This document shows, in pieces, positions 35,908-42,842 of a DNA stretch of 64,000 nucleotides. This DNA is from Silvanigrella paludirubra. Its GTDB lineage: Bacteria > Bdellovibrionota_B > Oligoflexia > Silvanigrellales > Silvanigrellaceae. Both the position numbers and the translations under genes were made by a program. Location: the NCBI RefSeq assembly GCF_009208775.1, contig NZ_WFLM01000003.1:163374-227373 (forward strand), in the 5' to 3' direction. Under the pieces are notes generated by a model. It saw only the letters and a program-made list of their open reading frames with translations. It was not told the origin of the DNA and did not search any database. How positions within the stretch are numbered: position 1 is the stretch's first letter; each line of letters starts with the position of its first letter.

Positions 35908-35968
35908 CAAAACGCAACGCAAAGGCTAAATGCCTCGCTGGCGACAAAACCCAAAACGAGGTTATTTC

Positions 35969-37489
35969 ATGTTAGATAAAGAATCGAACCAAATTTTTTC
36001 TGAAAAACTCCGTACTCGATTTATTGAGTTGGGTCTTTCAAAACAAACTGCAACAAAAATAACCAAACTAATCACACCTGTAAAGATAGATGGAAATACC
36101 ATTATATCCTACTGCTCTGACACTTTTTATAGAGATCACATTATCTCTCCAAAAATAGATGAAATAGAAAAAATAGCTAAAGATTGTTGGGGAAAAGCAT
36201 ACGATTTTAAAATAGAAGGCAACCCTATTGAAGAAAACAGTGCCGTCAAAACAAAAAGCTTTAAAACAAATAAAGAGTCTCAAATTACACTTTTTCCAGA
36301 TGAAAATAACTATTTCCCAGAAAAAAAGAAAAAATTAAAACCCAAAATTTCTTTTCAAGAAATTACTCCTGTAAATGCAATTAAAGAAGAAGAAATAACT
36401 CAAAAATTTGAAGAAAAAAATAATCTTCCAATAAATAATGAAAAACCAAGAACTTTAGATGCTACGCAAAACTTTGGAACTTTTATACGCTGTGAAAGTA
36501 ACCTTGTAGCTTATTCTGCATGTGAAGCGGTAGCAAAAAATCCTGGTAATTTATCTAATCCATTGTTTATTTACGGTGCAACAGGACTTGGTAAAACACA
36601 CCTTCTTCACTCAGTAGGTAATGAAATAATTCAAAAAATTCCAAATGCAAAAATTCTTTATATAACAAGTGAAGACTTCGTAAATGATGTAATTCATAGA
36701 GGGATTCGTGTTGGAAAAATGGATGAAGTTAGATCTAAATATAGTGCTTGTGATGTTTTATTAGTTGATGATATTCAATTTCTTGAAAAAAAAGATGCTT
36801 GTCAAATAGAGTTTTTTCATACATTTAATGAGCTTTATCAAAAAAGAAAACAAATTGTTATTACAAGTGATAAGTTTCCTAAAGACATTCCAAATATTGA
36901 AGAACGCTTAAAAAGTAGATTTTTACAAGGTTTACTTGTTGATATCGAACCACCAGGATTTGAGGATAGAGTTGCTATTATCGAAACAAAAGCAAATTTA
37001 ATTGGTCTTAAAATAAATCAAGAAATTTCTTTTTTAATTGCTACACATGCAAAAACAAACGTAAGAGAAATTCAAGGATTGTTAAAAGATCTTCTTATGA
37101 ATCAGCACATGACCGGGAGAAGCCCTACTATTGAATCTGTAACAACAATTTTAAAAAGAAGATTTCCTACAGGCTCTGTAGAATCTACAATTGATACTGC
37201 CGCAATTCAAAAAGTAGTAGCAAATCATTTTCAAATAAAAATGGCTGATTTAATGGGACAAAGTCGTCAACAAAAATTTGTAATCGCAAGACATATTGCA
37301 ATGTTTTTAGCAAAAGAAATGATTGGTTTACAAATAGTAGCAATCGCAAACGCGTTTGGAAAAAAAGACCACACAACAGTTTTACATGCGATGTCAAAAG
37401 TAAAAGAGCTTTTAGAAAAAGACGATGAGTTCAGAGGCAATTTCATACAAGTAAAAAGAAAAATCGAAGCTCTAATGCAATCTAATTAA
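35969..37489 (+). CDS. dnaA: Chromosomal replication initiator protein DnaA
   Basis: The product has 506 residues from the ATG at 35969, seven bases after GAGG; an upstream in-frame ATG at 35930 lacks a ribosome site. Domain I covers about 1-85. A lysine-rich linker follows (about 100-150). Domain III is an AAA+ module with Walker A GATGLGKTHLLH (from about 203) and Walker B DVLLVDDIQFLEKK. Domain IV has the DNA-binding helix-turn-helix and the signature GKKDHTTVLHAMSKV. It binds the TTATCCACA boxes in the origin 1.1 kb downstream. The stop overlaps the convergent sua5 stop by eight bases. Confidence 0.98.
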   Translation: MLDKESNQIFSEKLRTRFIELGLSKQTATKITKLITPVKIDGNTIISYCSDTFYRDHIISPKIDEIEKIAKDCWGKAYDFKIEGNPIEENSAVKTKSFKTNKESQITLFPDENNYFPEKKKKLKPKISFQEITPVNAIKEEEITQKFEEKNNLPINNEKPRTLDATQNFGTFIRCESNLVAYSACEAVAKNPGNLSNPLFIYGATGLGKTHLLHSVGNEIIQKIPNAKILYITSEDFVNDVIHRGIRVGKMDEVRSKYSACDVLLVDDIQFLEKKDACQIEFFHTFNELYQKRKQIVITSDKFPKDIPNIEERLKSRFLQGLLVDIEPPGFEDRVAIIETKANLIGLKINQEISFLIATHAKTNVREIQGLLKDLLMNQHMTGRSPTIESVTTILKRRFPTGSVESTIDTAAIQKVVANHFQIKMADLMGQSRQQKFVIARHIAMFLAKEMIGLQIVAIANAFGKKDHTTVLHAMSKVKELLEKDDEFRGNFIQVKRKIEALMQSN

Positions 37490-38597
37490 TTAGTACAAAT
37501 TTACCAGATGCTGCTCTATAAATTCTGTCAAAAATAGCACTTAAATTCTCATTATTTTCATAATTTAAATCTGGTAATAAAATAAACTCAGCATTTTCAA
37601 TTATCTCTGCTTTTCTTAAAAAATGAAATAAATTTTTACTTGCTTCTTTAGAATCTCCTGAATCAGATAAGTCTAAGTAGCACAGTGAAAGTTCTTTGAA
37701 TTTTAAATTTTTAGAATTGAAATCAATTAAAACGGATTTTGATAATAAGTTTTTTGAAAATAATGGAATATTTTTATTTAATTTTAATTCATTATTTTTA
37801 ATAATAAATGATTCAATATTTGGTGAATAATGTGTTAATAATTGTCCAGGAGAGTCTAGGTTAGTTGATAATTCCTGATCTTCATTTATTATTTTCACTT
37901 CTCTTTTAACTAAATTTACTTTTATATTTACATTATTTTCATTTAATACATTATTTAATTGAAGTGAACTAATAGCTCCTGGTCTTAAAATAGAAATTTC
38001 GTTATTTTCAGATATTTTAACTACTGTTGATTCAATTCCTATATCGCATTCTTCTATTTGATTTATAATATATAAATCTGGGAAGCTTCCTAAATCATCA
38101 TAAACATGATTTGCTTTAGTCGGACTTACATGACCGAATCGATTTGCACTAGGAGCAGCGATTGGAAAATTTACTTTTTTTAGCAAACTTAAAGCAATTT
38201 TTCCCGATGGAATACGAATAGCGATAGAATCTCCACCAGCAGTGATAAGTTTGGGGATATTTTTGGAGGCCTTCACAATTAATGTCAAAGGACCTGGCCA
38301 AAATTTCTTACCAAGAATGTCAAAACAATGTCTTTGAAATGAAGTCATTTCTGTTAAGCTTTCAGCTTGGAATATTTCACTTATATGAACGATAAGAGGA
38401 TCTGACTTTGGCCTTCCTTTGGCAAAGAAAATTTTTTCTAATGCTTTCTCATCAAGCGCATTTGCTCCCAAGCCGTAAACTGTTTCCGTGGGAAATGCGA
38501 CTAAGTTACTTGCTTGTAAAGCATGGGCACACAGATCCATTGATTCTTCAGAGAAATTTAAGATTTTTGCCACTTGTATCTCCAATTTTTGATTCAT
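37482..38597 (-). CDS. L-threonylcarbamoyladenylate synthase (Sua5)
   Basis: The product has 371 residues. The YrdC domain (about 25-215) has LVAFPTETVYGLGANALDE, FFAKGRPKSDPLIVHI and FPIAAPSANRFGHVSPT, which make the ATP/threonine/bicarbonate site of the t6A tRNA-modification pathway. A Sua5 C-terminal domain follows, SPGQLLTHYSPN being the typical linker. The gene points away from oriC and sits between dnaA and the origin, so dnaA is not next to its boxes. Its first codons lie 19 bases left of the first DnaA box. Confidence 0.93.
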   Translation of the reverse strand: MNQKLEIQVAKILNFSEESMDLCAHALQASNLVAFPTETVYGLGANALDEKALEKIFFAKGRPKSDPLIVHISEIFQAESLTEMTSFQRHCFDILGKKFWPGPLTLIVKASKNIPKLITAGGDSIAIRIPSGKIALSLLKKVNFPIAAPSANRFGHVSPTKANHVYDDLGSFPDLYIINQIEECDIGIESTVVKISENNEISILRPGAISSLQLNNVLNENNVNIKVNLVKREVKIINEDQELSTNLDSPGQLLTHYSPNIESFIIKNNELKLNKNIPLFSKNLLSKSVLIDFNSKNLKFKELSLCYLDLSDSGDSKEASKNLFHFLRKAEIIENAEFILLPDLNYENNENLSAIFDRIYRAASGKFVLIN

Positions 38598-38802
38598 TTC
38601 GAGTTCTTAATAGACTTATCCACATGTTATCCACATAGGAAATAGGACCTCACCTCAATCGCATTTTTTCCATATTTTAGAATGATTTTCAAGGTTTTTA
38701 CAAAAAGTTATCCACATCAAAAATCAAAGTTATCCACATACTCACATAAAAATTTAGTTACTCTATCTCACTTTTGGGAATCTTTACAGATCTCATTTTC
38801 TA

Positions 38803-38844
38803 TGTGGATAAGATGTGGATAAAGTGTGGACAACCTGTGGATAA
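38803..38844 (-). repeat. Reverse-oriented DnaA-box array, 11-bp period
   Basis: Four boxes in the TGTGGATAA orientation start at 38803, 38814, 38825 and 38836, exactly 11 bases apart. The third is a variant (TGTGGACAA). One DNA turn per box would put the DnaA monomers on one face of the helix. Confidence 0.95.
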
Positions 38845-38872
38845 CTAAAACGCTTAAAATTAATGCAGCAAG

Positions 38873-38934
38873 TTATCCACCAAAATTTTAGCTTATCCAC
38901 ACTTTATCCACACTTTATCCACATCTTATCCACA
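38873..38934 (+). repeat. Forward-oriented DnaA-box array, 11-bp period
   Basis: Four perfect TTATCCACA boxes start at 38893, 38904, 38915 and 38926, again exactly 11 bases apart, preceded by a near-box (TTATCCACC) at 38873. With the reverse array it forms a large inverted repeat: CCACACTTTATCCACATC is found in both when one is reversed. Confidence 0.95.
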
Positions 38935-39002
38935 GGTTTTTTAGTACTCAAAAACGCCTCTAGTTATTGATTTATAATATATATTTTAAATCCTCATTTG
39001 TG

Positions 39003-39040
39003 TTATCCACATAAAATAGCTTCACCTACTACTACTTCTA
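39003..39040 (+). promoter_or_regulatory. DnaA box followed by DnaA-trio tract
   Basis: A box TTATCCACA (39003-39011) is followed by a 14-base spacer and then CTA CTA CTA CTT CTA (39026-39040). The complementary strand reads GAT GAT GAT GAA GAT in the 3' to 5' direction, the pattern of DnaA-trios that guide DnaA onto single-stranded DNA. AT-rich sequence follows. The box-trio-AT order matches the known basal unwinding element. Confidence 0.7.
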
Positions 39041-39110
39041 ATAAAAAGTTTTTAAATTTCTTATAAAGTGTATAAGAAGAGTTACTCAAGTACTCATGCT
39101 TGAACAGCTG

Positions 39111-39141
39111 TTGACAATAGGTTAAGCAAACACTGTATAGA
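39111..39141 (+). promoter_or_regulatory. Possible dnaN promoter
   Basis: TTGACA (39111-39116) and TATAGA (39136-39141) are separated by 19 bases, wider than ideal, with TG just before the -10. If real, transcription starts after 39145 and rules out the ATG at 39141 for dnaN. Confidence 0.4.
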
Positions 39142-39164
39142 TGAATTTTTTCAAAGGTGGACAT

Positions 39165-40349
39165 ATGTTTAAAAAGAGCAAATGTTTTTTTTCATCCGAC
39201 GTCCAAAGTATAAGTCCTGAAATTTCTGCTGAGTTTGACAGGGACAAATTAGCTAGTGCGTTATTATCCGTAAGTGCAGCACAAATTGACCCTGATATTG
39301 GTTGGGTACAACTTTCTTTTTCCGGTGGTAAAAGAGTTGTTATTTCTTCTATAAGTCACAATCTTGCAATTAAATGTGAAATAGAAACGCCTTATACAGG
39401 ACAAGGAGTTATTAAGGTTTCTGGAAAGCAGTTTTCAGACTATGTTAAACAACTTCCTTCAACTAAAGTCTATTTAAAAGCCGAACTCCCTTCTAGAATT
39501 CAATTAAGATGTGGAAGAAGTTCTGCTAAAATACAACTTGTACATGATCAATCACAAAGTAAAATTGATATTCCACAAGCAGGAACTTTAGTAAAAATCA
39601 AAGGAAATTTAATTGAACGCTGGGTTTCAAGCTTTAAAGATTTTGTTTCTGTTGATGATAATAGATTTTATGCAAATGGTGCCTTAATTTGGGCAGAAAA
39701 AAATTCCGAAAATAGTTCTGTTTTACATGCAGTAGCAAGTGATGCTTTAAGATTAGCAAAATCATCATTGAATGAAGGCGTTCAAATTGAAAATTTGGAT
39801 TCAAGTCAAGTTTTAATTCCTAGAAAAGCTTTAGAAGAATTAAAAAGAGTAGCTACTTTAGAACCTGAAAAAGAATTTAGTTTAAAATGGCATGAAAAAG
39901 AGCTCTTTTTTTCTGTTGAAGCTGATGAATATACGATGTTTGCAAAATGTATTGCGGGACAATATCCTCCTTATGAAGCAGCTATACCTCAAAAAATAAA
40001 TACAGAAATTCAACTAGATTTAAAATCAATTCAAGATAGTGTAAAGCGTTCTCTTCTTTTTGCTGACAAAAATAAAGTGATGAAATTACATTTTGAAAAT
40101 TCACTTTTAACGATGGCAAGTTCCACCCCTGGTCAAAAAGAAGGCGAAGAGGTGATCGAAATGAGTGCATCTATAGCATCTCCATTTGAAGTGAACTATA
40201 ACGGATCTTTGATTATGGGTATTTTAGGGGTTTTATCTGGATTACGTGTTCAATTTGCTTGGGAAAATATGAACAGACCTGTTAAAATCACTGGCGAAAG
40301 TCAAAGAGGTTTAGAAGTTTTTTATCTTCTAGTGCCAGCTCGTTTTTAA
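39165..40349 (+). CDS. dnaN: DNA polymerase III beta subunit (sliding clamp)
   Basis: The product has 394 residues. It begins with ISPEISAEFDRDKLASALLSV, as expected for the first clamp domain after a short N-terminal extension. Middle marks are VLIPRKALEELKR, KCIAGQYPPYEAAIP and the C-terminal domain. It ends with EVFYLLVPARF, where E. coli has a VVMPMRL-like end. It forms the dimeric ring that tethers polymerase and partners to DNA. The ATG at 39165 follows AGGTGG; an ATG at 39141 overlaps the putative -10. The gap to gyrB is 42 bases and no recF is present between them. Confidence 0.95.
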   Translation: MFKKSKCFFSSDVQSISPEISAEFDRDKLASALLSVSAAQIDPDIGWVQLSFSGGKRVVISSISHNLAIKCEIETPYTGQGVIKVSGKQFSDYVKQLPSTKVYLKAELPSRIQLRCGRSSAKIQLVHDQSQSKIDIPQAGTLVKIKGNLIERWVSSFKDFVSVDDNRFYANGALIWAEKNSENSSVLHAVASDALRLAKSSLNEGVQIENLDSSQVLIPRKALEELKRVATLEPEKEFSLKWHEKELFFSVEADEYTMFAKCIAGQYPPYEAAIPQKINTEIQLDLKSIQDSVKRSLLFADKNKVMKLHFENSLLTMASSTPGQKEGEEVIEMSASIASPFEVNYNGSLIMGILGVLSGLRVQFAWENMNRPVKITGESQRGLEVFYLLVPARF

Positions 40350-40376
40350 GTCCGTATTTGAGTTTTTAATTTTTGA

Positions 40377-42842
<2,466 letters not shown>

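Follow-up and report, generated by a model that had tools for sequence, protein, structure and literature searches.

The chromosomal origin of Escherichia coli contains two oppositely oriented arrays of DnaA boxes with 2-bp spacing (left, R1-R5M-tau2-I1-I2; right, C3-C2-I3-C1-R4), each half of which is thought to carry one head-to-tail oligomer of ATP-DnaA that fills toward the centre. The half adjoining the unwinding element opens the DNA while the other aids helicase loading, and the spacing of the centre, between R2 and C3, is reported to be important for DnaB loading. Full-turn insertions are tolerated in E. coli, whereas half-turn insertions are not (Woelker and Messer 1993, as cited in later work), and the two arrays are stated not to be helically phased with each other (Rozgaja 2011, as relayed by a review). 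Basal unwinding in Bacillus subtilis depends on the distance between a box and the DnaA-trios, with a peak at spacers of 10-13 and a limit at 16. For Thermotoga maritima DnaA, the available part of the source gives optima of 2 bp between direct boxes and 4 bp between inverted boxes, the arrangement of the latter being left unspecified there, and also records that 10 bp added between boxes 1 and 2 are tolerated but 5 bp are not. The origin of Bdellovibrio bacteriovorus, which is probably of the same broad lineage as the DNA examined here, is described (PMC5124646) as comprising eight boxes, of which two are within dnaA, with one box beside an unwinding element that has four GAT trios on one side. 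A paper from 2023 concluded that the design principles of DnaA-box layouts remain unclear.

The window analysed here is a stretch of 64,000 nucleotides from Silvanigrella paludirubra, the features of which are collected in Table 1. Its box cluster had been annotated initially as oriC, and that identity is borne out by several features. Each of the 12 perfect boxes in the 64-kb window falls within the 543-bp intergenic region 38598-39140, on the dnaN side, with only 16 present in the surrounding 400 kb, and the rest of the 3.93-Mb genome contains no tandem box pair when up to one mismatch is allowed. The cluster has dnaA, dnaN and gyrB (at 40392) as neighbours, and the cumulative GC-skew (G-C) minimum, computed over a 400-kb stretch, is located at contig position 202411, or approximately 39038 in the window, where it coincides with the DnaA-trio motif. 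Since the skew minimum falls on an unwinding motif, the locus is, on these sequence features, the chromosomal oriC, with DnaA-dependent initiation predicted. Two further observations concern the neighbouring genes. dnaN is followed directly by gyrB, recF having not been found between them (39141-40392), unlike in Bdellovibrio, and the DnaN protein is divergent (114.8 bits versus a TIGR00663 cut-off of 137.65). Additionally, the 38616/38627 box pair lies some 20-40 bp upstream of the start of the sua5/tsaC-type gene and, since this pair is also conserved in the genus, DnaA may regulate that gene.

Table 1. Genes, DnaA boxes and unwinding motif at the origin (window coordinates)
Feature	Coordinates	Strand	Basis
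dnaA, initiator gene	35930..37489	+	TIGR00362 DnaA equivalog, 428 bits vs cut-off 343.9; Pfam Bac_DnaA, Bac_DnaA_C
sua5/tsaC-type threonylcarbamoyl-AMP synthase gene, between dnaA and oriC	37482..38597	-	TIGR00057 and Pfam Sua5, above cut-off
Outer forward box pair (38616, 38627), 11-bp step	38616..38635	+	Two perfect TTATCCACA; kept in 7/7 genus genomes
Two further forward boxes (38708, 38730), 22 bp apart	38708..38738	+	Perfect; spacing identical in 7/7 genus genomes
Reverse array, four DnaA boxes (38803, 38814, 38825, 38836), 11-bp steps, distal to unwinding side	38803..38844	-	Box scan
Centre between arrays, 48 bp; starts of inner boxes 57 bp apart (13 + 4 x 11)	38845..38892	.	Sequence
Central single box TTATCCACC, near-box in window	38873..38881	+	Perfect TTATCCACA in other 6 genus genomes
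Forward array, four perfect DnaA boxes (38893, 38904, 38915, 38926), 11-bp steps, proximal to unwinding side	38893..38934	+	Box scan
DnaA box of basal unwinding system; last forward array box lies 77 bp (7 x 11) before it	39003..39011	+	Perfect; box and distance same in genus, counterpart across class
DnaA-trios CTA CTA CTA CTT CTA ATA (CTACTACTACTTCTAATA; 3'-GAT-5' on other strand), 14 bp after box 39003	39026..39043	+	Conserved across class families
dnaN, sliding clamp gene	39141..40349	+	Pfam DNA_pol3_beta domains 1-3

Rescanning of the window reproduced every box coordinate, orientation and 11-bp step in the initial annotation, together with the forward near-box at 38873. Seven of the eight array boxes are perfect consensus, the third reverse box at 38825 (TTGTCCACA) having one mismatch, and five perfect forward boxes lie outside the arrays (38616, 38627, 38708, 38730 and 39003). 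The centre was said to be 48 bp long and AT-rich; the length is correct, but a direct count gives approximately 31% GC compared with 0.308 for the whole intergenic region, and the centre is therefore not specially AT-rich. A short AT-rich stretch flanked by GC ends is present at 38851-38868 (GCTTAAAATTAATGC), with similar AT stretches between GC flanks at the equivalent place in congeners, and is possibly a bending site. The IHF consensus WATCAANNNNTTR was not found in 38598-39140; a bending protein other than IHF is possible.

Shared with E. coli are two opposed arrays with mostly 2-bp internal spacing, one middle box, and an unwinding element that lies outside just one of the arrays, its polarity relative to them being the same; the predicted anatomy is a mirror image of the E. 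coli two-halved plan. The idea that head-to-head arrays are unusual does not hold, given that E. coli and many phyla have the arrangement, and a unique layout is ruled out on the same grounds. Conversely, the array boxes of the window are mostly consensus, whereas those of E. coli are weak, ATP-selective and placed between strong sites, although forward arrays in congeners are more degenerate than that of the window. The middle box has the orientation of the unwinding-proximal array, whereas R2 of E. coli has that of the distal one, the intergenic region is without a recognised IHF site, and the origin adjoins dnaN and has a clear DnaA-trio. With respect to Bdellovibrio, the published account, so far as it is available, does not describe two phased arrays.

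The unwinding module, by contrast with the arrays, resembles that of B. subtilis, comprising a forward box and a 14-bp spacer followed by CTACTACTACTTCTA, which corresponds to 3'-GAT-5' trios. The arrangement conforms to the definition of a basal unwinding system (a box, a spacer of 0-16 bp and at least three trios, with 3'-GAT-5' preferred), and the box plus 14 bp plus CTACTACTACT recurs across families of the class. Unlike in B. subtilis, the module ends a two-array region, and no second tandem box is evident beside that at 39003. No mirror copy of the motif was seen by eye beyond the reverse array, and the predicted unwinding module is thus on the dnaN side only. The two facing, phased arrays had been read initially as two DnaA filaments, perhaps for symmetric bidirectional firing. 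The former is indeed the natural reading, but symmetric function in its simple form is unlikely because the unwinding motifs are on the dnaN side only.

Conservation was assessed in 7 genomes of the genus and in 47 dnaN-upstream regions from the class. The reverse array comprises four boxes in 7/7 genus genomes, and the forward array also has four except in G004 and G007, which have three, the outermost (fourth) box having decayed. Steps are all 11 bp in five genus genomes and 11 or 12 bp in G004 and G007, whereas spacing is retained in the forward arrays of G002 and G003 even though the boxes are degenerate. The central box has the orientation of the proximal array throughout the genus. In the class, both arrays were recognisable in 21 of the 47 regions at the stringency used, and in each of these 21 loci the forward array is the one nearer dnaN, with the reverse array upstream of it. 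One or both arrays were not recognised in the remaining 26 genomes at this stringency, with contig ends accounting for some. The control, which was the forward-then-reverse arrangement in the class, gave 3 of 56 genomes versus 9 of 58. Array size varies among relatives, and in other families 11- and 12-bp steps are mixed. The initial expectation that relatives would keep both orientation and 11-bp phase is therefore upheld for orientation, and for a phase of roughly one turn, but not for steps of exactly 11 bp, which are ruled out as a constraint since relatives use 11 and 12. Spacing changes in the genus also extend beyond the arrays. In G004 and G007, the third forward box and the 39003 box are separated by 77 bp compared with 88 bp elsewhere, while box 38730 and the reverse array are 51 bp apart as opposed to 73-74 bp. 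Both changes are whole lattice units, of about one and about two turns, respectively, and as an analogy they resemble the full-turn tolerance of T. maritima and E. coli.

This conservation bears on whether the arrays might serve mainly to titrate DnaA, or to regulate the sua5 and dnaN promoters, with initiation requiring only the 39003 box and the trios. Most of the boxes are indeed high-affinity consensus sequences lying between two genes whose promoters must be in the region, and unwinding of the B. subtilis type in vitro needs nothing besides the box and trio module. Titration alone, however, would not require orientation, steps and inter-array gap to be conserved along with the unwinding module across families, and both E. 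coli halves act in initiation. A role confined to titration or promoter control is accordingly considered very unlikely.

Measured start to start, the innermost boxes of the facing arrays are 56-58 bp apart in the genus. When 84,980 species genomes were scanned for perfect boxes arranged as two reverse plus two forward, with the inner gap set to 23-53 bp, 52 stretches or contigs were recovered from many phyla (some phylum labels being those of metagenome bins, which may be wrong), with at least one of dnaA, dnaN, gyrB and mnmG being found in 45 of the 52. Gaps between inner boxes in these loci are quantised, clustering at 13, ~24, ~35 and ~46: the counts are 13 (2 loci), 23-26 (6), 28-29 (2), 34-36 (19), 38 (2), 40 (1) and 44-47 (20), with 30-33, 41-43 and 48-53 being avoided within the scanned range. 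The periodicity statistic for 34 collapsed in-range values, near relatives having been collapsed by record title as opposed to by tree, was 0.75 at ~10.6-11 bp, whereas the maximum across 20,000 uniform simulations was 0.64. All reverse-forward box pairs in the 52 loci gave peaks at 24, 35, 46, 57, 69 and 80-81, but the inner-gap test is the stronger of the two since the array step partly recurs in pairs that are separated by more than one box. When one value per genus of the class was taken, each of the eleven genera entered was within 2 bp of 13 + 11n. The published E. coli spacers (I2-R2, 9 bp; R2-C3, 20 bp) place I2 and C3 47 bp apart, which is also on the lattice. Similarly, counted from start to start, the T. 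maritima optima become 11 and 13 bp, which are also the two constants of the window lattice, and the origin of that organism likewise has inverted boxes with a register, although it has one inverted box and a non-canonical box sequence and is without the long array pair.

A second, smaller set of loci (L094, L095, L124, L132 and L138), labelled mostly as Bacillota and Spirochaetaceae, has gaps of 28-29, 38 or 40, which depart from the main lattice by as much as about half a turn and are left unexplained by the 13 + 11n rule.

Oppositely oriented arrays with 2-bp spacing are already known from E. coli, and the quantised distance between inner boxes is the new part; in the open-licence literature, no previous description of phased inverted arrays was found beyond the papers cited here. 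That the 13 + 11n register represents a general, undescribed rule of bacterial origins, in which the oligomers would touch or form one continuous in-register assembly spanning the centre, with contact being part of initiation, is proposed tentatively and is on balance doubtful.

The two arms of the window are also alike in sequence. The inverted 18-mer noted initially, CCACACTTTATCCACATC, is present in both and sits within a longer, 28-bp perfect inverted repeat in which 38803-38830 pairs with 38907-38934. Among 41 foreign loci, the runs shared between arms averaged 19 within a genome versus 13 between genomes, and inner spacers agreed in 13 of the 41 compared with 3.5 expected; neither value was reached by any permutation. 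Spacers are TAC in both arms of G004 and G007, and the arms of G019 are identical over 47 nt. Because arms are more alike within than between genomes, these data suggest that they may be homogenised, as in concerted evolution of an origin palindrome, perhaps by template switching. Since arms of one genome often share spacers and unit lengths, the array units have evidently been copied, and the register could feasibly be a relic of 11-bp unit duplications from an ancestral inverted pair, with gap differences reflecting units gained or lost and the oligomers having no contact. Yet the centres differ completely between phyla, where random indels should have erased the phase as opposed to leaving whole ranges of gap lengths unoccupied, and whole-unit deletions in the genus fall outside the arrays as well. 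A purely historical origin of the register is thus regarded as unlikely.

The similarity of the arms could also mean that the palindrome is itself functional by adopting a hairpin or cruciform structure, through extrusion or in the single-stranded state, with the boxes merely its building material. The predicted DNA fold of the window arms has an energy of -40.2 kcal/mol (z = -12), 7/7 genus genomes fold strongly as single strands (z of -6.5 to -12.9), and the inverted repeat and the better match of arms within genomes point in the same direction. However, inverted consensus boxes pair automatically, and in G002, G003 and G006 the pairing is mismatched or shifted by one box while spacing and orientation persist. 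Furthermore, many foreign loci keep the register despite dissimilar arms, with a shared run of ~10 that barely exceeds a box. A functional hairpin is therefore highly improbable. An RNA element was dropped as a candidate, an Rfam scan of 38000-39600 having returned no match.

The explanation that we favour, and consider likely, is that the window contains an oriC built on the E. coli two-halved plan with consensus boxes and a trio module of the Bacillus type, where two in-register DnaA oligomers form and that on the dnaN side feeds the DnaA-trio. On each array, ATP-DnaA would assemble into a head-to-tail oligomer. That on the forward, dnaN-proximal array, together with the box at 39003, would feed DnaA onto the trio strand such that the DNA opens at 39026-39090, whereas the reverse, distal oligomer would support the open complex and loading of a second helicase for bidirectional replication. 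From the fixed register (inner boxes at 13 + 11n bp), we infer that the side of the DNA on which the two oligomers face each other would be defined, the centre between them being bent or bridged. Ordered filling by affinity cannot be assumed for these arrays, because most of their boxes are consensus, unlike the weak sites of E. coli. A swivel in the linker between domains III and IV has been proposed for T. maritima DnaA; since alignment of the window DnaA with those of B. subtilis and T. maritima has a gap of at most one residue through this junction, its linker is not shortened relative to theirs. Standing against the favoured explanation are the review's account of Rozgaja 2011, the 26 class genomes in which the full array pair was not recognised, and the lack of a match to the IHF consensus.

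DnaA-box layouts are so varied that a common assembly rule lacks agreement. A quantised distance between facing arrays, which is kept across phyla while the intervening sequence is not, constitutes a simple rule that can be tested with mutants, and the lattice is relevant to the claim that phasing is absent between the two E. coli arrays. The genus is unusually clean material in this respect, having consensus boxes, one cluster and an obvious trio.
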